From assembly GCA_017432285.1 (NCBI GenBank), contig JAFRJM010000012.1, positions 1 to 64,000 of the forward strand: a DNA stretch of 64,000 bases. The letters are read 5' to 3'. The notes below the pieces were generated by a model that did not search any database, was not told the origin of the DNA, and saw nothing but the letters and a program-made list of their open reading frames with translations. The position numbers and the translations under genes were made by a program. Positions within the stretch are counted from its first letter, which is position 1; each line of letters opens with the position of its first letter. Origin of the DNA: Oscillospiraceae bacterium (GTDB taxonomy: Bacteria > Bacillota > Clostridia > Oscillospirales > Ruminococcaceae). This document shows positions 48,414 through 62,300 of the stretch, in pieces.

Positions 48414-49358
48414 ATGAACAAGATAGATGCTTTTTACCAGGACAAGGAAACATGCACTGTACCGTCTACACATGTCATAGACGGCACAGACAGTTCCCCC
48501 TTGCTGGAGATAGATGAGTTATTTGGAGCTGCGGATGTTCTCAGCATCTGCAATGCAGAAAAGCGCCGCAGGGTCCTGCTGGCTTTGTCTGTTGCAGGAA
48601 CTTTGCTTACTTTAGCTTTCCTGCTTTATGATGAGGCAGAGATACATGGGCTCATACTCGCCTGCGGAGCAATGATACTCTGCCTGTTTTTTGTCCGTCA
48701 TATATCAGAGAGGATGGACTGCCACAGAAAATATCTGGAGTACAGAGTACTGGCGGAATGCCTCAGGTGCCAGTATTTTCTGACCTATGCAGGAATAACA
48801 GCATCTGTTCTGGATATCCTGCCCTGGTCTGTAAGGAAGGGGATCCCATGGATCACGGAGATCCTTAAGGGGATTCCGGCAGCAGAAGATGCGGAGAAGC
48901 ATTCCGTTCTGTCATGCTGGATAAACGACCAGAAAAAATATCATGAAAAAGCATTAAGGAAAACAGAGATAGAGGACCGCAGGAACGGACTGGCTGCAAA
49001 AGCAGTGCTGATCGTCACTATCGTGACATATATGGCGGCGCTTGTTTTTGAACTGGCGGTATATGGCAAGGGCGGAGCAACTGCAGACCAGGATGTGATG
49101 CGCATCATCCTGAAGATAATGCTTGGGACCATGTCTGCCGTCACTCTGTTCACGGGGAATTATTATGGGAAGATGTCGCTTTCCAATGTTATAGATGACC
49201 ATAAAAGGATGATCTCCCTTTATGAAACTGCGGAGGAAGAGATCGCGAAATATGGAGAGAGCGAAGAACTGCTGCTGTCTCTCGCAAGAGAGTTCCTGAA
49301 TGAGAACAGTACCTGGTACTCATACCAGAGCAAAAACAAGCCGGAGATAATCATGTAA
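48414..49358 (+). CDS. SLATT-like membrane protein
   Basis: A 314-residue protein with two pairs of hydrophobic helices (about 57-95 and 195-255). The soluble stretch after the first pair reads YLEYRVLAECLRCQYFLTYAGI, and later SVLSCWINDQKKYHEKAL and LAREFLNENSTWYSYQSKN, which resemble the SLATT (SMODS/SLOG-associating 2TM effector) group and the related 4-TM proteins that are often fused to nucleotide-sensing SLOG domains. No SLOG or nucleotidyltransferase domain is present or next to it. It starts 16 bases after the chromate transporter. Function is unknown; membrane-disrupting effector is one hypothesis. Confidence 0.5.
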   Translation: MNKIDAFYQDKETCTVPSTHVIDGTDSSPLLEIDELFGAADVLSICNAEKRRRVLLALSVAGTLLTLAFLLYDEAEIHGLILACGAMILCLFFVRHISERMDCHRKYLEYRVLAECLRCQYFLTYAGITASVLDILPWSVRKGIPWITEILKGIPAAEDAEKHSVLSCWINDQKKYHEKALRKTEIEDRRNGLAAKAVLIVTIVTYMAALVFELAVYGKGGATADQDVMRIILKIMLGTMSAVTLFTGNYYGKMSLSNVIDDHKRMISLYETAEEEIAKYGESEELLLSLAREFLNENSTWYSYQSKNKPEIIM

Positions 49359-52993: not shown

Positions 52994-54211
52994 ATGGCAG
53001 ACGAAAAATCTTGTGGTGCAATCGTTTTCACCTATGAAAATGGCACAAGAAAATATGTGATGGTCCGGGGAACTGGAATTTATCAGGCCTTTTATGGTTT
53101 TCCAAAGGGACACATGGAAGCCGGAGAAACGGAACAGGAAACGGCACTGAGGGAAGTCAAAGAAGAAACAGGCCTGGATGTTAAACTGATCGATGGTTTC
53201 CGGCAAGTTGATGAACATTTCTTGGCACGGGAAGGCCGATCAAGCGATAAGAAGACCAATGTTTATTTTTTGGCAGAATATCAAGATCAGGAACTTAAGG
53301 CACAGGAGTCTGAGGTTTCGGAGGCCGTTCTTATGAATTGTCAGGATGCGATGCAATGTCTTCAGTCGGAGGGATCAAAGAGAGAACTTGCAGAAGCTGA
53401 GAAGTATATAGATTCATATTATGAACAGAAACAGGATAAGACCAGTCAGCTGGGATTTGAGAAGGGGAAAATGAAATACAGGATTGAGGACCTGACAAAA
53501 GAAGACGCTGAATATATCAGCAAAAAAATAAGTGACATCGTGCCGCGCGAAGTTGATGCAGACGCAGAAGAATTTGTCCTCAAGATCGAGAACGAAAACG
53601 GAGAGATCATCGGCGGATGCGTTGCAGAAGTATATGAATACCACTGGTCAAGAATGCTTCTTGAAGATCTCTGGGTGGATGAGCGCTACCGCCATCAGGG
53701 GATAGGGTCCACGATTATCCGAGAGGCGGAGCGTATTGCAAGAGAGAAGGGCTGCCGGGTCGTGACACTCGGTACCTCCAGTTATATGGCTAGACCCTTC
53801 TATGAAAAACATGGCTACACGGTATTCTCAATTTTGCAAAAGACAAATGGATATCTCAGTTATTCCTTAGTCAAATACCTTGATAAGGATACGCCTGACT
53901 ATGTACCGACAAATAACAGCGGTGCCAGGTTCAAAGTCTCGTTTGGCAGCGATGACGATGCAGAGGTCATAGTGAATGGCCTTGACACATACTGCGATGT
54001 CTACGAACAGAAAAGTGAAAACGTCGGCTTTTACAAGAAACTTGTGGACGAAGACGGAGCATTTGTTGCGGGTATGATTGCAGACGTTTACAAAGGGGAG
54101 ATCGGCTCTGTTGATGGGCTGTTTGTTGAAGAGCCATTGAGACACCAGGGTTTAGGCACGTATTTTTTACAGGAAGTGGAAAAATTGGCCAAGAAAAACA
54201 GTGTCTCATGA
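52994..54211 (+). CDS. NUDIX-GNAT-GNAT fusion, 3' end frameshifted
   Basis: A 405-residue product as it stands. Residues about 1-140 are a NUDIX hydrolase with the full box (GHMEAGETEQETALREVKEE then TGL), residues about 155-290 a GNAT acetyltransferase (VDERYRHQGIGSTIIREAER), and residues about 300-405 the first part of a second GNAT (VEEPLRHQGLGTYFLQEVE). The frame ends at once after an A5 run (54194-54198). One more A would join it to a frame running to 54333 that reads LMILTSAGDWNVDFFKKNGY and so on, exactly a GNAT end. The gene is thus broken, phase-variable, or affected by a read error. Confidence 0.82.
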   Translation: MADEKSCGAIVFTYENGTRKYVMVRGTGIYQAFYGFPKGHMEAGETEQETALREVKEETGLDVKLIDGFRQVDEHFLAREGRSSDKKTNVYFLAEYQDQELKAQESEVSEAVLMNCQDAMQCLQSEGSKRELAEAEKYIDSYYEQKQDKTSQLGFEKGKMKYRIEDLTKEDAEYISKKISDIVPREVDADAEEFVLKIENENGEIIGGCVAEVYEYHWSRMLLEDLWVDERYRHQGIGSTIIREAERIAREKGCRVVTLGTSSYMARPFYEKHGYTVFSILQKTNGYLSYSLVKYLDKDTPDYVPTNNSGARFKVSFGSDDDAEVIVNGLDTYCDVYEQKSENVGFYKKLVDEDGAFVAGMIADVYKGEIGSVDGLFVEEPLRHQGLGTYFLQEVEKLAKKNSVS

Positions 54212-55896: not shown

Positions 55897-56059
55897 TCGT
55901 TCGCAGCCCTACTGCCGTATCAAAAGGGATTGATAACCGCGCAGACGCATGAGGTGCCCGGAATCTGGATGCCTTTTAAGATATATGCATTGAGATGAAC
56001 TTGTGGTACAATAAATTATCTTAGGAGTTCAATTATCTTTCACTGAAGTGAGGTTTAAC

Positions 56060-56272
56060 ATGGTAAAGAACGATTTCGATATAGACGTGAAGGTCAAATG
56101 TCTGGAAGAACGTATCACCCAGGCGCAGCTTGCTGAGAAGGTCGGCACTTCCGCTTCGTACATCAGCAGGCTCATAAACAAGCAGGGCGGCATCGTGAAC
56201 AAGACCTTCGTGGAAATGCTCGAAAAGATGGGTTACGATATTCAGGTTACCTATGTAAAGAAAGACATGTGA
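56060..56272 (+). CDS. small XRE-type helix-turn-helix protein
   Basis: A 70-residue protein, nearly all HTH: ERITQAQLAEKVGTSASYIS followed by RLINKQGGIVNKTFVEML. GTGAGG lies 6 bases before the ATG at 56060. It is the first gene of the cluster that ends with the TIR-LRR protein, with a stop about 46 bases before the next ATG. It is probably the cluster's local regulator, as is common for defence loci. Confidence 0.82.
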   Translation: MVKNDFDIDVKVKCLEERITQAQLAEKVGTSASYISRLINKQGGIVNKTFVEMLEKMGYDIQVTYVKKDM

Positions 56273-56322
56273 GCTGTTATGATGAGGCACAGCATCATGA
56301 TAACGGGAGGTGTCTGATATGG

Positions 56323-57966
56323 ATGAACAGGAATTGCTGCAGAGTATGGTCTCAGAAGAGTGGGGGCATATATCGCCGTGCTGACTGGAAGGGACAGCTG
56401 GACCTTCTTCGGCACACTGTTTCAGTGTACATTGCCTATGCTGACAGAACATATGAAGACCTGTGTTTCGTTTTGGACGGCCGTACAGAACTGAGATACA
56501 TGGTCAACAAGGCGGCTGCAGTCAGCGACGACTACACTATGAGGGGGTTTGTCCGCTTTGTGTTTGCACTCAAAGAGGGCGAAACGAAAATATTCACATG
56601 GGTGACCGCGCACGGAAACAAGGAATGGATCCTGTCCAGGGATAGGGTTGCACTTTATGTGAATGCTCCCGAGTTCAAGGAAGACTTCTTTATACGGTAC
56701 GGAACATTCAGAGACGAATGCTTTGCCGCCTACGAAAAGGTTTACGGCTGGGGTTATAAGTCAGATATCCAAAAGATAGAAGTGCCCGAAAGAGATCTTG
56801 AATCCCTGACGTGGCTGGAGCCGGAGGAGGAATTTGAGCTTGTCCGGTATCTGGATGACGGCAGATCGTTCGAAACCACGGATACGGATCGGCTGCTGCG
56901 GTTTGTTGATGAACGCAGGGTGCGGGAAGAGGCTCTGGAAAACCCGGATCCGGACCGCATTCAACGCTTTAATGACCTGTATCAAGCGATAAAGTACTAT
57001 ATTGCGGAGCAGAAACCGATAAGACGGGCAAGGAAGGTTTACCCGATTATCGGGAAAAGCTTTTCCTGGATGGAAGACAACTGGGAAGAATGCGCTTTTC
57101 ATTATAGTTTCACAATGGATCCGGATGACTTGCACGACGGGGTCTACCGCCGTTACGGCGATCTGCCTGGAGGCAGGCATTTCGGCGTATCGATCTGGCC
57201 TAAGTCTGATGTTTTTCCCCCATGTTCGGCCATGATGACCGTCAATAAAAAAGGAAGGATGCAGGTGAATACGGAGATCGATGGCCGCTGGGATGTGGTG
57301 CCTCAAAGGGACCTCTGGCCGCAGGCGGCAGCGGCGTCCCCCAGTGGCAAAAGCATCGTCTGGCTCAAGGACGGCAAGATCGGGGCGTGGCAGGAGGATT
57401 GGAAAGAGAAACGTTTTCTCCAGGACGATGGCCACATGCTGACGGACCGGCTTGATAACGTCCTCGTCCAGGACGCTATTATGCGTACGGACGGGATCCT
57501 TGTGATGTTTATGAAGGACGGGAGAACAATGGGCTATCTCTGCGACGCCGATATGATCCTTTTCCGCTGGGATGACGGATGGCTCCCCAAAACGGATGAA
57601 CACGGGAATCTTTCATGGGCGATCAAACAAGGCATGCTGGACACCTGTCCTGAAGAGCTCTTCGTGATGGTCCACGAAAGGGACAGCTGGGGAGAATACG
57701 ACGGATGCGGCGTAAAACGTGTTTTCTTTAATCCGGGTGTTGAAAGGATCGAGGGTGAAATCCTGGCGAACAACCCTGGCCTTGAGAGAATCGTTATCCC
57801 GTCATATGTCGAATACGTGGAATGGTACGCTTTTTACAACTGTGTGAACCTGCGGGAGCTTGTGATCAACGGCGATCCGGCACGCGTGGCGAAATGGAAC
57901 GCGGAAGCGTTTAAAGGCTGTCCCTGTGAAGAGGAATATCTCCGCCTGCGCAGCGGCGGGTGCTGA
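56323..57966 (+). CDS. unknown protein with C-terminal BspA-like LRR, N-terminal frameshift
   Basis: A 547-residue product from the ATG at 56323. The best ribosome binding site (GGGAGG at 56305-56310) is 8 bases from another ATG, at 56319, in a frame that stops at 56384. If the G5 run at 56362-56366 had four G, that start (MDEQELLQSMVSEEWG) would run on into this frame (IYRRADWKGQLDLLRH). So the native gene probably starts at 56319 and is frameshifted here. The main part is rich in Trp, Asp and Glu and is not recognised; the last 65 residues (NPGLERIVIPSYVEYVEWYAF) are an LRR_5/BspA-type repeat. No signal peptide or anchor is seen. Confidence 0.7.
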   Translation: MNRNCCRVWSQKSGGIYRRADWKGQLDLLRHTVSVYIAYADRTYEDLCFVLDGRTELRYMVNKAAAVSDDYTMRGFVRFVFALKEGETKIFTWVTAHGNKEWILSRDRVALYVNAPEFKEDFFIRYGTFRDECFAAYEKVYGWGYKSDIQKIEVPERDLESLTWLEPEEEFELVRYLDDGRSFETTDTDRLLRFVDERRVREEALENPDPDRIQRFNDLYQAIKYYIAEQKPIRRARKVYPIIGKSFSWMEDNWEECAFHYSFTMDPDDLHDGVYRRYGDLPGGRHFGVSIWPKSDVFPPCSAMMTVNKKGRMQVNTEIDGRWDVVPQRDLWPQAAAASPSGKSIVWLKDGKIGAWQEDWKEKRFLQDDGHMLTDRLDNVLVQDAIMRTDGILVMFMKDGRTMGYLCDADMILFRWDDGWLPKTDEHGNLSWAIKQGMLDTCPEELFVMVHERDSWGEYDGCGVKRVFFNPGVERIEGEILANNPGLERIVIPSYVEYVEWYAFYNCVNLRELVINGDPARVAKWNAEAFKGCPCEEEYLRLRSGGC

Positions 57967-58003
57967 TTGTTTAGCGTAGCTTATATAGAGAAAGGAAAAA
58001 GAT

Positions 58004-60049
58004 ATGGCATATACAGCTTTGCAGCAAATGAAAAACAAAAATGAGAAGGCGTTCGGGAAAGCCATTGGTCCGATCCAGCCTGAGCGGCATTATGACTCTT
58101 TTGACCACGGACTCAAGGCTATGGCGCTACGGTTTCTCCATGTGAGGTGTGAAGGACTTTGCTTCCGCGCGGAAGAAGGGAATGACTATCTCGGAACAAG
58201 CTTGATGCCGGGACAGATCCCGTACAATATGCAGATGGACATAAACCGCCTGTGCCTGGAACGTGAGCTTGAAAAGTTCATCGATTCCGGTTCTGCAGAG
58301 GACGCCTACACCATTTACTACTGCTATCTGGAAATGTTCTTCGGACATTATGGGAAATCGAAAAAGATGGTAGAGCTGCTATCGGAATTTGAATCCAATG
58401 GAAGTTCTCTTCTGATGAAGCACCGCGACCACTACTCTCATTCGGTATACGTATTTGCTCTGGGACTGGCGATCTACGAATCCAACACCGCTTACCGTGC
58501 GGCATTCAAAAAGTATTACGGCTTTGAGACCAAAGATACTGATACCGAGGCAGAACATGCGGCGGCGTGCTGTTTTCTGGAATACTGGGGGCTGACTTCG
58601 CTTTTTCACGATATTGGTTATCCCTTTGAGCTTCCGTTTGAACAGGTGCTATCCTACTATGAAGTGACAGGCAGGAAACGAGGCAAAGGCAATCTGTTCC
58701 TCGCTTATCATGACGTAGATGCGATCACAAAACTCGGCAGTGAGGCAAAGAAACAGTTCGTAAAGATCTATGGCCGCCCCTTTGAATCCACGGAGGAGCT
58801 GTTTGCCTTCAGCATCACGGAGAAGCTCGGCGCGGCTTATGACTTCACTGAAGAATACATGCTCGGCAAGATCCATGATAAGCCGATTTCTCCGGATGAA
58901 TTCAATTACTTTATGGATCACGCGTATTTCAGTGCGACGCGGCTCTATCGTGAGATCGAAAACTCGATCGGCATCGAAAAGATCAACGAAAAACACGTGG
59001 ACGCTCTGACAGCGATCCTGCTTCACAACAGTCTGTTCAAGTTTGCTGTTTCTTTCTTTAACGGCAAAAACTATAAACGGCCACTGCGGATGGACGAACA
59101 TCCGCTGGCATTTCTCCTCATGCTCTGCGACGAGCTGCAATGCTGGGACCGTACGGCATACGGCCGCAATTCCCGCACCGAGCTGCATCCACTGGCGGCG
59201 GATTTCGATTTTAAAAACAACGCGATCCATGCGATCTATTATTATGACAAGGATGAGCAGGAAAAGATTGACGCTTTCAAGATCAGATACAGAAAATGGG
59301 AGGATGGCGGTGAAACGGGAGACGCGCCAAGGCTGAAGGCCTACAGCGACATGGCGGAGAAGGAGCAGCGTTTTGCCTCAGATATCGAAAAAATCGTCGA
59401 TCTTTCAGACATGCCCCTCGCGGTAGTTCCGAATACCCGGGAGGTGGACCGGAAGAGCAAGCACACATATCTTTCCACCAGTAATTTCCTGCACTTATAT
59501 GATTTTGCCGTAGCGCTCAATGCGCGCTATTCCTATCAGGGAAAGGAAAAAGACGTCGAAACAGAGGTGCTAGAAAAGGAATTTGAAGCACTTTCTCTGG
59601 AATACCAGCTTTCCAATATCAATCAGGCGAAAAACTTCTCCAAATACCTCGACGCGCTCAGATGCTTCTACACTGATCGCCCGGTGGATTATGAAATGAT
59701 CGCCGCTTTTACGAAAAAGCAGATGGAAGTGTTTGCTCCCATGGAGCATGAACGCTGGATCAGGGAGCACATCTCGATGGGCTGGACCAGCGGCGACCTT
59801 TATGAGAAGGTACCGCTCTCGGAAGAGATGATGAGCCGATACGGAGATGAAAAGACTGCGCGCAGAGCCCTGCGCGAGCAGCTCCGCATGCATAAGCTCG
59901 CATTGAACGGCGCTCCCACACAGGTGGAGATCTTTGCTCACTACGCTGCGCTTCCGCCGGAGGAACGGGAAAAGGATTACGAGCCCTTCAACAGCATGCT
60001 GAAGCTCATCAAAAAATTTGACGGACTACGGATCTACAGGCTGGATTAA
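58004..60049 (+). CDS. HD-like protein with C-terminal RyR-type domain
   Basis: A 681-residue soluble protein. An HD-phosphohydrolase-like core is suggested by His140-Arg-Asp-His143 with H146, His202-Asp203 in LFHDIGYPFELPFEQV, His341 in ILLHNSLFKF, and Asp376 in LLMLCDELQCWDR. The end, about 579-675, has HERWIREHISMGW and later LPPEEREKDYEPFNSML, which resemble the RyR domain found in some bacterial conflict and signalling proteins. AAAGGAAAAAG precedes the ATG at good distance. HD domains here may cut nucleotides or cyclic nucleotides. It sits 38 bases after the LRR-tailed gene, inside the TIR cluster. Confidence 0.6.
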   Translation: MAYTALQQMKNKNEKAFGKAIGPIQPERHYDSFDHGLKAMALRFLHVRCEGLCFRAEEGNDYLGTSLMPGQIPYNMQMDINRLCLERELEKFIDSGSAEDAYTIYYCYLEMFFGHYGKSKKMVELLSEFESNGSSLLMKHRDHYSHSVYVFALGLAIYESNTAYRAAFKKYYGFETKDTDTEAEHAAACCFLEYWGLTSLFHDIGYPFELPFEQVLSYYEVTGRKRGKGNLFLAYHDVDAITKLGSEAKKQFVKIYGRPFESTEELFAFSITEKLGAAYDFTEEYMLGKIHDKPISPDEFNYFMDHAYFSATRLYREIENSIGIEKINEKHVDALTAILLHNSLFKFAVSFFNGKNYKRPLRMDEHPLAFLLMLCDELQCWDRTAYGRNSRTELHPLAADFDFKNNAIHAIYYYDKDEQEKIDAFKIRYRKWEDGGETGDAPRLKAYSDMAEKEQRFASDIEKIVDLSDMPLAVVPNTREVDRKSKHTYLSTSNFLHLYDFAVALNARYSYQGKEKDVETEVLEKEFEALSLEYQLSNINQAKNFSKYLDALRCFYTDRPVDYEMIAAFTKKQMEVFAPMEHERWIREHISMGWTSGDLYEKVPLSEEMMSRYGDEKTARRALREQLRMHKLALNGAPTQVEIFAHYAALPPEEREKDYEPFNSMLKLIKKFDGLRIYRLD

Positions 60050-60074
60050 GGGAAAAGAGGAGGAGAATGACGGT

Positions 60075-60581
60075 ATGGCAGAACAGATATTTATCATCGA
60101 AGACGGCACGCTGACGAAATTTGAAGCGGATGATTATATAGAAGAAGTGTACATCCCGGATCGTGTGAAGAGTATCGGCTGCGAGGCTTTTTCCGAAGCG
60201 TTGGTAGGAAAGGTCGTTATCCCCGACAGTGTGACGAAGATCGAAGCAGATGCGTTTGTGGATTGTACTCTGAAGGAGATCGAGATACCTGACAGCGTCA
60301 CGACCATTGAAACATGGGCTTTTTCCGGCTGCGAAAATCTTCACAAGATTACGATTCCGGAAAGCGTTACATCGATAGGCCCATGGGCTATCGGATACCG
60401 AGAACTTCATTTTCTTCCGTACTGGGACCCGGTCCCGTTCGGACGTCCCGTCATCATATACGGGAAAAAGGGCAGTGAAGCCGAACGATACACAAAAGAC
60501 AATTGCTGGTGTTACAACGAACATATTACCGAGTTCCGGGAGATCGAAACGGATGCCGGAGAACAGAAAGGAGATACATAA
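60075..60581 (+). CDS. BspA-like leucine-rich repeat protein, cytoplasmic
   Basis: A 168-residue protein made of about four LRR_5 repeats of the BspA type (for example VVIPDSVTKIEADAFVDC and ITIPESVTSIGPWAIGY) ending in IIYGKKGSEAERYTKDN, the usual end of such arrays. The ATG at 60075 follows GAGGAGGAG. BspA-type repeats usually belong to large exported surface proteins, but this one has no signal peptide or anchor. Its stop overlaps by one base the ATG of the TIR gene, so they are coupled. Confidence 0.85.
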   Translation: MAEQIFIIEDGTLTKFEADDYIEEVYIPDRVKSIGCEAFSEALVGKVVIPDSVTKIEADAFVDCTLKEIEIPDSVTTIETWAFSGCENLHKITIPESVTSIGPWAIGYRELHFLPYWDPVPFGRPVIIYGKKGSEAERYTKDNCWCYNEHITEFREIETDAGEQKGDT

Positions 60582-61678
60582 TGGAAGACAGGAAAGATAT
60601 GCAGACAAGACTTGTGCCTGGCGTGGGGAGGCTGCCTTATCCGGCTTATCGCGGGAAGGAGCCTTACGTCTTTGTCAGCTATGCGCACCTGGATTCGGAG
60701 CGAGTGTTTAAAGAGATCAAACGCTTCAACGAGGCAGGTTTTCATGTCTGGTATGACGAGGGGATAGCGCCCGGCAATGAATGGTCTGATGCGATCGCTG
60801 AGGCGCTGTCAGACTGTGCTGTGTTCGTTGTCTTTCTGACGCAGACGTCCGCTCCGCGCGAGAATGTCCTCAATGAGATCGACTTTGCGCTGAACGAGCA
60901 GAAGCCGTTCCTTGCCATCCATCTTGAAGAAACGACGCTGCCTCCCGGTCTCAAACTGCGCATTTCCCGGAAACAGGCGATCCTAAAGTACGTCATGTCG
61001 GAAGAAGAATACGAGTATAAATACATAGAGGCATTCACGAGGTTCGGGCTGAAGCAGGTCAATGTGCAGCCGGCAAATGCGTCTGCATCAAAGGAGACAG
61101 AATCGGATTCCGTTGGGACGGATGAGTCCTCTTCGGTCAAAGCGAACAGCGAACCTGCTGTGAAGTCCGGTGACGGAGTGACGATCAAACAGTTGGATGA
61201 ATTGGTAAAGAATTTTCTTGAAAAAGATAAGGCTGCAGACCCGAAAAAGGCAGAAAAAACAGGAGAGGAATTCTCTGATGATTTGCCGGAAGACGCAAAA
61301 AAAAGAGCCAACGGCGATCTGGTGCGAATTGACGGCTTCGACGTTGAGCACGGGTTTTTAAGTGCATACAAAGGAACGGAGAAAGATATTGTCATACCTG
61401 ATTCCGCAAGGGTTATCGGAAGTCTTGCTTTTTCAGGTCAATCAACCATTGAGTCTGTTGATCTCAATCAGGCAGGATTGATGGTTGCCGGCCGGCTGGG
61501 AGTGTTCTGCAATTGTCCGAATCTGAAGACTGTCAAGATCCCGCCAACAGTCAAAGAGGTTACCCCGAATATGTTCCAGTATTGCCCCAATCTGACGGTT
61601 TATGTTCGCAAAAGCCAGGTCTCTTCAGATTTTGAGGAGCGTTTTACGGGGAAGGGTATCGTCTATCTCGATGAATAA
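60581..61678 (+). CDS. TIR-domain protein with C-terminal LRR_5 repeats
   Basis: A 365-residue protein. Residues about 26-155 are a TIR domain: PYVFVSYAHLDSERVF, GFHVWYDEGIAPGNEWSDAI, CAVFVVFLTQTSAPRENV, and LNEIDFALNEQKPF, in which Glu99 aligns with the catalytic Glu of NADase TIRs. A charged low-complexity linker (about 160-245) follows, then an LRR_5-type region (IVIPDSARVIGSLAFSGQS; VKIPPTVKEVTPNMFQY). The ATG at 60581 has AAAGGAG upstream. TIR domains in bacterial defence cleave NAD+ or make signal nucleotides; here an LRR is fused as in animal and plant innate immune receptors. The trigger is unknown. Confidence 0.87.
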   Translation: MEDRKDMQTRLVPGVGRLPYPAYRGKEPYVFVSYAHLDSERVFKEIKRFNEAGFHVWYDEGIAPGNEWSDAIAEALSDCAVFVVFLTQTSAPRENVLNEIDFALNEQKPFLAIHLEETTLPPGLKLRISRKQAILKYVMSEEEYEYKYIEAFTRFGLKQVNVQPANASASKETESDSVGTDESSSVKANSEPAVKSGDGVTIKQLDELVKNFLEKDKAADPKKAEKTGEEFSDDLPEDAKKRANGDLVRIDGFDVEHGFLSAYKGTEKDIVIPDSARVIGSLAFSGQSTIESVDLNQAGLMVAGRLGVFCNCPNLKTVKIPPTVKEVTPNMFQYCPNLTVYVRKSQVSSDFEERFTGKGIVYLDE

Positions 61679-61709
61679 TGTCTGAGGCAGAAATACTGAG
61701 AGGTATGAC

Positions 61710-62300
61710 ATGATCGCTGAAAAGCCCGAATTTGAGATAAGGGATATCCTGAGAGAGCATATATCTAACGGAGCGATCGATCTGCTAAGGAATATGGCAC
61801 GTTTATTTGCGGGTGAATCGGGATTTGTGGAGAAGAAGATGGATAAACTGATGACACCTTTTGGAAAAATCAAAATACTGATAGATGGGGAAACGGTCTC
61901 TTATTCTGTACAAGAGGATATAAAAAGGGACAGCATATGTTCTCATGTTTTGGGGAGATATCAAATTGTAGTTCCATATATGCCTGATGGAAAAGGGCAT
62001 TGTGTTTCATGCATATTTGAGCCCGTATGTTCGTATAAAAGAACTCCGGAAAGCGGAGAGCATTTTGAATGCCAGAGCTTCTATAATGAAAACAGATTCA
62101 AAATGTCGATTGGAATTGACGGTGAACAGGCGGACTATTTAGAAAACGGCATAGCTGTTCAGGTTCTTCCAGACACACAAAAAGAAAAATGTGTATTTGG
62201 AATTGCCTGGATAGATGGAGTTGGGTGGAATGATTCAGATGATATTAGAGGTCGAGATGCCGAAACGTGGTATGCGGCAGATCCTTCTCTATCGTTATAG
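61710..62300 (+). CDS. unknown protein following the TIR gene
   Basis: A 196-residue soluble protein I do not recognise. GAGAGG precedes the ATG and it starts 31 bases after the TIR gene. Its base composition is more AT-rich than its neighbours, suggesting a different origin. It contains several Cys (SCIFEPVCSYKR; FECQSFYNENR) and an aromatic C terminus (GIAWIDGVGWNDSDD). It may be the last gene of the cluster or a separate gene. No motif points to a function. Confidence 0.6.
   Translation: MIAEKPEFEIRDILREHISNGAIDLLRNMARLFAGESGFVEKKMDKLMTPFGKIKILIDGETVSYSVQEDIKRDSICSHVLGRYQIVVPYMPDGKGHCVSCIFEPVCSYKRTPESGEHFECQSFYNENRFKMSIGIDGEQADYLENGIAVQVLPDTQKEKCVFGIAWIDGVGWNDSDDIRGRDAETWYAADPSLSL

Follow-up and report, generated by a model that had tools for sequence, protein, structure and literature searches.

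Recurrent pairing of an HD-RyR protein with TIR proteins in distant bacteria suggests a candidate Thoeris-like signalling system

What do a TIR protein and a protein combining HD-like and RyR-like parts do together when their genes lie in one bacterial operon? The question is raised by a locus in an Oscillospiraceae bacterium (assembly GCA_017432285.1, contig JAFRJM010000012.1, positions 1-64,000); by the window we mean this entire stretch of 64,000 nt. An initial annotation had read six same-strand genes of the window as one candidate set for defence or signalling. Judged from sequence, the core of the system is the HD-RyR protein together with the TIR protein, the remaining genes being accessory. 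The HD-RyR/TIR pair turns up again in distantly related bacteria and has the appearance of a so far unstudied signalling system, which on the combined analyses is probably related to defence. The core consists of the following features.

58004..60049, + strand: HD-RyR protein, 681 residues, core of the system, with 47 related loci in genome contigs
58430..59131, + strand: HD (phosphodiesterase-like) part within HD-RyR, H143 to D376
59678..60046, + strand: RyR domain of HD-RyR, residues 559-681, with H582xxW585 and D658; PF02026 at 5.2e-5, below cut-off
60581..61678, + strand: TIR-LRR_5 protein, 365 residues; TIR_2 1.6e-15, LRR_5 6.9e-10 (39.3 bits)

We assessed recurrence across 48 loci, the window and its 47 relatives, using a TIR hidden Markov model (HMM) iterated from Pfam-confirmed matches; because this HMM was built from the analysis's own matches and iterated, its E-values are not independent. 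In 23 of the 48 loci a same-strand TIR gene stood no more than 1 kb from HD-RyR, against an expectation of 0.07 calculated from the TIR density in 38 such genomes (120 per 93.9 Mb). The expectation in the initial annotation that TIR and HD-RyR would be found together elsewhere is thus borne out. Two more loci (L014 and L027) have their TIR neighbour on the opposite strand, and L044 has three TIR genes 3-7 kb off. No TIR was in view in the other 22: eight of these end no more than 350 bp downstream, three (L005, L010 and L046) carry a SLATT-like gene and 11 are orphans with neither a TIR nor a two-transmembrane (2TM) neighbour, the upstream flank being short in L031 and L040. Seventeen genomes holding a locus that lacks a same-strand TIR neighbour were searched, and 14 of them nevertheless have TIR_2 somewhere; counted here are the opposite-strand TIRs of L014 and L027, as well as a genome that also holds L022 with its TIR.

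The association extends to a lineage of shorter proteins (572-592 residues, ~23-33% identical), where a TIR-LRR gene is directly next to HD-RyR in four of seven loci. In these four (L060, L061, L128 and L130) the TIR-LRR_5 gene either begins 3 or 13 bp after HD-RyR or overlaps it by 4 bp, with L060 and L061 representing a two-gene minimal form; in L059, L062 and L129 the next gene is not TIR-LRR_5. Across all loci the TIR partners vary, with TIR joined to LRR_5, to TPR/Sel1 or to LRR_4 (non-LRR_5 types in L012, L016, L017 and L026), and two tandem TIR segments are present in 13 of the 31 TIR proteins. Because relatives' partners carry TPR, Sel1 or LRR_4, we do not regard LRRs as defining, and LRR_5 was ruled out as the defining feature of the system. 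Pfam confirmed TIR in every partner submitted for it (part of the 31) except the 277-residue protein of L017. The window TIR protein has Glu at position 99, within NEIDFAL, which we take to be the catalytic Glu site of TIR NADases, and the earlier description of a TIR domain with this Glu joined to LRR_5 stands (TIR_2 and LRR_5 E-values as listed). A Glu at this position is not kept in every TIR segment of the relatives, for example in one of L003's.

Some of these partners have company of their own. Behind HD-RyR and a tandem TIR-TPR protein comes a Ser/Thr kinase-TPR protein, with a Pkinase match in L012 and L015; L013 and, on the opposite strand, L011 have a gene of this cluster as well. 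In L012, L015 and L020 a small gene also follows, which in L020 is weakly like a dual-specificity phosphatase. The genome of L015 (G418) has 22 TIR_2 matches in 3.3 Mb, the most among 35 genomes searched.

If the TIR protein makes a signal, the RyR part of its neighbour is the candidate to meet it. PMC13232231 reports that the phage anti-Thoeris protein RyDEP and its homologues bind 2'cADPR and 3'cADPR, in one case with cleavage, using a pocket of H75, W78, H100 and D117. From that pocket and the HxxW and D found in relatives of the window protein, we infer that the bacterial RyR parts meet a TIR product. The RyR assignment had been made without profiles and holds under profile search through the relatives: the window protein itself reaches 23.8 bits with PF02026 against a cut-off of 27.4, whereas all three short distant relatives exceed it (L059, 49.7 bits, 4.5e-13; L060, 55.9 bits, 5.2e-15; L062, 59.7 bits, 3.4e-16) and align with the window family over the same RyR residues. 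Long-form relatives score at the cut-off (L022, 27.4 bits), below it (L005, 24.9 bits) or give no RyR match with PF02026 (L044 and L040). Among 46 aligned proteins, H582 is kept in 44, W585 in all 46 and D658 in 45. Counting by hand, L062 has HxxW with a D 39 residues after the W, and the equivalent of RyDEP H100 is T, Q or S in L059-L062, with no clear counterpart placed in the window family. An AlphaFold2 model of HD-RyR (predicted local distance difference test 81.6, predicted template modelling score 0.87) gave no Foldseek match at E <= 0.001; for the RyR part, rank 2 was a human RyR3 repeat with ATP (probability 0.87, E 0.41). Searching the PDB by sequence with the window HD-RyR family returned only sub-significant RyR matches, with unrelated nuclear receptors or a dehydrogenase ranked top.

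The HD assignment fared less well by profile. Pfam HD (PF01966) had no match in the window HD-RyR or in L060 and stayed below its 22-bit cut-off in L062 (15.5 bits, E 0.022) and L059 (13.6 bits, E 0.084). Six HD metal-ligand positions (an H, HD, D set) are invariant in 46/46 aligned proteins, and the HD part of the model resembles class I phosphodiesterases (PDEs) and other HD-type phosphodiesterases, a helical-fold resemblance within the structure tool's caution range; together these two observations suggest an HD domain. The difference from class I cyclic-nucleotide phosphodiesterases is large, with ~8% identity, no Pfam PDE match and Pfam HD present below cut-off in the two distant relatives only. 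Searches of HD-RyR gave no match in PADLOC (2023) up to E 0.1 and only an unrelated sub-cut-off holA in NCBIfam (June 2026; E 0.058). One relative (L046:8001-9110) lacks the middle of the protein, residues 1-203 and 494-678 being matched, and is still followed by its SLATT-like gene, while L103 matches weakly, in the HD part alone, and has neither RyR nor TIR. In a plasmid collection the window HD-RyR was unmatched, and the L060 protein was matched by its RyR piece only.

How, then, might the two proteins work together? The reading we prefer, which we consider about evenly poised between right and wrong, is a Thoeris-like circuit in which RyR receives a TIR-made signal and the HD enzyme is the output. 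The LRR tail (TPR/Sel1 in relatives) or a partner protein would detect phage infection or another insult, and the TIR domain, if it behaves as its family does, would use Glu99 to turn NAD+ into an ADP-ribose-type signal. By analogy with RyDEP, this signal would bind the C-terminal RyR of HD-RyR in a pocket formed by the conserved H582, W585 and D658. Binding would switch on the HD phosphodiesterase-like domain, with its conserved metal-ligand set, to destroy some nucleotide or nucleic acid on which the invader depends; a tandem 2TM SLATT-like protein, where present, would add a membrane output, and the helix-turn-helix (HTH) protein of the operon may restrain it. RyR would fill the receiver role held by SLOG or macro domains in known Thoeris effectors.

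We count the TIR link in favour of this circuit because of the 23 neighbours in 48 loci against 0.07 expected, the four of seven in the short lineage and an 8-bp overlap between HD-RyR and TIR in L100. The circuit is favoured further because both HD and RyR residues are kept across a divergence to ~23-33% identity, because the two-gene minimal form of L060 and L061 is as in Thoeris, and because the spread is patchy (5/391 genomes), crosses phyla and includes plasmid-like carriage. The receiver role in particular is favoured because RyR is joined to swapped outputs near TIR genes: HD, TrkA_N, AAA and, with a RyR end just below cut-off in L152, a membrane protein. The TIR matches near six of nine RyR-bearing genomes' RyR genes, described next, count in favour too. 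Output swapping around one ligand-binding domain is typical of sensor domains such as CARF and SAVED.

These swapped outputs came from a wider look at bacterial RyR genes. PF02026 matches 9 of 396 genomes of the phylum, and it misses long-form members, since the window's own genome gives no match. TIR_2 lies within 2 kb of the RyR gene in six of the nine (G113, G531, G558, G721, G736 and G801) against 0.02 expected, two of the six (G721 and G801) being HD-RyR itself within one genus; the remaining three (G026, G642 and G758) have no TIR_2 within 2 kb. A TrkA_N-RyR protein stands with a DUF4231-like protein and a TIR-NACHT-TPR protein in L131, and without TIR in L133. L132 joins AAA to RyR, beside a TIR protein and a 535-residue RyR protein. 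RyR-only genes accompany a TIR with a beta-helix in L150 and three TIR genes in L151. From G188, outside the phylum sample, L152:1-4658 (- strand) holds a membrane protein with a RyR end (25.5 bits, below cut-off), a 98-residue RyR-only protein and a TIR-LRR protein; the RyR-only gene may serve the set as an off-switch of its own, and receiver and remover roles may both be present there.

Another way to view these loci is that bacterial RyR/R12 domains are general receivers of ADP-ribose signals made by TIR proteins and are attached to interchangeable outputs (HD, channel-like TrkA_N, AAA), sometimes accompanied by stand-alone RyR off-switches. The window operon would then be one branch of this unrecognised class, from which phages would have acquired their RyDEP decoys. 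We put this forward tentatively, as an idea with more chances of being wrong than right; if true, the cyclic-ADP-ribose link of animal ryanodine receptors has a bacterial immune counterpart.

The RyR-only genes also bring in the most serious competitor of the circuit, in which HD-RyR serves as a brake on a TIR protein that is itself the effector or makes the signal: RyR would bind or open cyclic ADP-ribose and HD would hydrolyse the product, sparing the cell from leaky signal. The initial annotation had likewise cast HD-RyR as tuning or removing the signal. We think this rather unlikely and favour it less than a RyR receiver with HD output, although RyR-only genes inside TIR operons favour signal removal and weigh against the circuit; they adjoin TIR genes in L150, L151 and L152. 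A class I PDE resemblance, as far as the model can be trusted, would also suit a small cyclic-nucleotide-like substrate. According to PMC13232231, the RyDEP of phage DyoEdafos acts as a glycosidase and has an H/D dyad, which may be compared with the conservation of H582 and D658 here (44/46 and 45/46), yet six of eight RyDEP homologues tested in the same work bound the signals and did not cleave them, so conserved RyR residues are no proof of cleavage. If HD-RyR were a dedicated brake, the 11 loci that lack a TIR neighbour would be surprising, though TIR lies elsewhere in 14 of the 17 genomes searched. RyR is, moreover, fused to TrkA_N and AAA, and we know of no TrkA_N or AAA part that degrades signals.

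Should the circuit be a defence, a mobile and uneven distribution is of interest. HD-RyR was found in 5 of 391 genomes of the class. Bacillota, Chloroflexota and Actinomycetota labels are intermixed in its tree, where labels of metagenome bins can be wrong, and the TIR neighbourhood requires ~10 gains or losses, a number as low being reached in 2 of 500 shuffles (the TIR label includes L014 and omits the fragment L047). On a contig recorded as a gut bacteriophage (L100), the HD-RyR and TIR genes of the 8-bp overlap lie near a gene with Phage_Mu_F and Phage_min_cap2. On another (L063, recovered in three scans as L063, L101 and L102 but a single IMG/VR contig), HD-RyR lies behind MobA/MobL and a 166-residue weakly DUF4231-like gene; we term this contig plasmid-like because of MobA/MobL and its actin-like genes. 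It has no TIR match across its 24 kb, with HD-RyR near one contig end. HD-RyR plus TIR is therewith supported, at the level of sequence, as a recurrent module that is patchily and horizontally spread.

Two further records touch on carriage. L022 and L025 hold near-identical HD-RyR proteins in assemblies labelled Chloroflexi and Ruminococcus, either through recent transfer or through an error of binning. Although its record says bacteriophage, L079 (MT836850.1) was not accepted as such; by eye we presume it to be a piece of Bacteroides-type chromosome. A RyR match there (L079:5001-6409) lies just ahead of a gene reading like a TrkA-type channel protein.

Rarity (5/391), cross-phylum mixture and carriage beside phage head and plasmid-type genes all speak against a second competitor, that TIR and HD-RyR serve the normal physiology or stress signalling of gut anaerobes by adjusting their NAD+ or nucleotide pools, as does the TIR-NACHT fusion of a parallel RyR operon. 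It draws some support from orphan HD-RyR genes in ordinary surroundings, such as the one behind a Xan_ur_permease gene in L033 (the same cluster in L037 and L043), and from several metabolic neighbours in the window; we consider it quite improbable. Less probable still, to the point that we give it little weight, is a toxin-antitoxin pair in which TIR-LRR would be an NAD+-depleting toxin and HD-RyR a protein antitoxin binding TIR-LRR without any small-molecule signal. The overlapping or nearly overlapping genes and the HTH gene of the window and L001 would fit such a pair, but strict conservation of HD residues and ligand pocket would be superfluous for a mere binder, the partners range from TIR-LRR to tandem TIR-TPR, and HD-RyR also occurs without a TIR neighbour. 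That the genes merely hitch-hike in variable islands with no common function is the least credible reading of all, since the abundance of TIR in some hosts (22 matches in G418) is set against near-overlapping genes in lineages ~23-33% identical and 23 neighbours where 0.07 were expected.

Returning to the preferred circuit, we asked how it relates to described systems. By our analysis it would work like Thoeris, yet HD-RyR fits none of the Thoeris effector models of PADLOC (2023) or NCBIfam (June 2026). The likeness is a TIR with Glu at the catalytic position beside a protein with a nucleotide-binding-type and an enzyme-type domain, for which an effector role would follow by analogy; the differences are that no SIR2, SLOG or macro effector was found in this system, where the receiver would be RyR and the output HD, and that its TIR has LRR_5 or TPR tails. 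The window TIR protein matches PADLOC models weakly (at best Aga_TIR-PNTD, 3.8e-5; SAVED_TIR, 9.1e-5; ThsB, 0.007), and its best NCBIfam match is Thoeris type III ThcB4, at 21 bits against a cut-off of 220. With no effector model fitting HD-RyR, membership in a PADLOC or NCBIfam system was ruled out. The claim that the content is unlike any named system survives for the effector models; it needs qualifying in that the whole is Thoeris-like and the signal link between RyR and TIR is already in PMC13232231.

RyDEP as described there shares a RyR/R12 domain with HxxW and D and handles ADP-ribose signals, but it is small, encoded by phages and serves to evade defence, whereas here RyR ends a bacterial HD protein encoded with TIR. 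Swarozyc (DUF4062) is likewise a recently described TIR-like NADase defence; it belongs to another TIR-like family, and RyR is unmentioned in the available part of its description (PMC13174449). Within the open-access literature searched, a set to which the Yirmiya et al. 2025 preprint on TIR-based systems does not belong, PMC13232231 alone connects RyR with a bacterial TIR system, and we make no claim of priority; both words occur in other papers too, for example Thoeris and ryanodine in PMC8295901 on SARM1.

Beyond the core, the window holds the following candidate accessory or neighbouring features.

56048..56272, + strand: Cro/C1-type HTH protein, 74 residues; HTH_3 1.2e-6 (Pfam); accessory
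56269..57966, + strand: LRR-tailed protein, open frame of 565 residues; LRR_5 1.9e-7, 31.5 bits; accessory
60075..60581, + strand: small LRR_5 protein, 168 residues; LRR_5 4.2e-23, 82.1 bits (profile search with a longer start)
61710..62300, + strand: 196-residue open reading frame (ORF), unassigned family; no family near cut-off in Pfam, PADLOC or NCBIfam
48414..49358, + strand: tandem 2TM (DUF4231/SLATT-like) membrane protein, 314 residues, behind a chromate-transporter pair

Five + strand genes run head to tail from 56048 to 61678 (HTH, LRR-tailed, HD-RyR, small LRR_5 and TIR-LRR_5), an order repeated identically in L001. The sixth gene that had been counted with them, the ORF at 61710-62300, gave no match at E 1e-3 across the 47 related loci; the six-gene set was ruled out as a unit on this ground, and the ORF is probably outside the system. 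The HTH protein, a possible operon regulator, has a counterpart (82% identical) at the same place in L001, its sole match among the 47 loci. Relatives of the small LRR_5 protein lie behind HD-RyR in L001, L002 (shortened), L003, L004 and L007 (within a longer frame). Besides the TIR-LRR_5 protein there are, as first described, two further LRR_5 proteins (1.9e-7 and 4.2e-23), and all three exceed the Pfam LRR_5 (PF13306) cut-off of 27.7 bits. In this they resemble BspA-type LRR_5 proteins, from which they differ in having no hydrophobic N-terminal or membrane segment and, in one case, in being joined to TIR. By hydropathy, the one criterion applied, no hydrophobic segment was present in any of the six cluster proteins, in keeping with the view that they lack signal peptides. 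The own genome of the window (2.13 Mb, 54.6% complete) has the TIR-LRR_5 gene as its single TIR_2 match and one LRR_5 match besides those in the cluster genes.

The LRR-tailed protein is a possible sensor. Its gene is beside HD-RyR in the window and 3 of the 47 loci, and relatives are found away from HD-RyR too. The window copy looks frame-broken or misassembled, because its frame aligns with the relatives in L001, L002 and L042 only from residue 35 onward and because the ATG at 56319 (behind GGGAGG) opens a relatives-like start in another frame, which stops after 21 codons. The copy in the genome of L002 has one TGA stop, and thus two of the four copies look damaged. In L006:10367-12820 (817 residues), part of the N-terminal domain of the LRR-tailed protein precedes TIR and LRR_5 in one fused protein, which connects this domain to TIR function.

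The set as first drawn took in the HD-RyR and TIR core, while a further part likely lies outside it: the 2TM gene at 48414-49358 is likely a detached partner of the system. Its protein has hydrophobic segments at 52-73, 74-99, 192-218 and 228-246, forming two pairs, and matches DUF4231 at E 0.0022 (18.8 bits against a cut-off of 24.7). Genes 49-64% identical to it come next after HD-RyR, or after the TIR gene that accompanies it, in L005, L006 (partial), L008, L010, L030 and L046, and because these 2TM relatives adjoin HD-RyR elsewhere, the window operon may have become separated from a partner with which it was once in contact. A 2TM match is present in 9 of the 45 genomes holding the 47 loci versus 6 of 391 class genomes (own included). 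Three of the nine are in longer frames of 538-577 residues (L069, L070 and L072), and the 314-residue protein resembles the membrane portion of such longer proteins, including L072, as in SLOG-SLATT and 2TM effectors; the 2TM partner of HD-RyR differs from these in lacking their N-terminal SLOG-like part. The L072 protein (L072:796-3833, in the genome of L004) has a front that is SLOG-like by eye and a SLATT_3 match below cut-off (E 0.0022), and its gene overlaps a TIR gene, making it another possible TIR/membrane-effector pair. L070 has a sub-cut-off YAcAr/SLOG match (4.6e-4), the N-terminal part of L074 is SLOG-like by eye, and L069 would, from its coordinates, lie ~6.7 kb behind the HD-RyR of L012.

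Several window neighbours of the operon are metabolic genes. Ahead of it, 52994-54211 reads as a Nudix-like part with acetyltransferase-like parts, the front of which matches the PADLOC candidate PDC-S07 at 2.4e-7.

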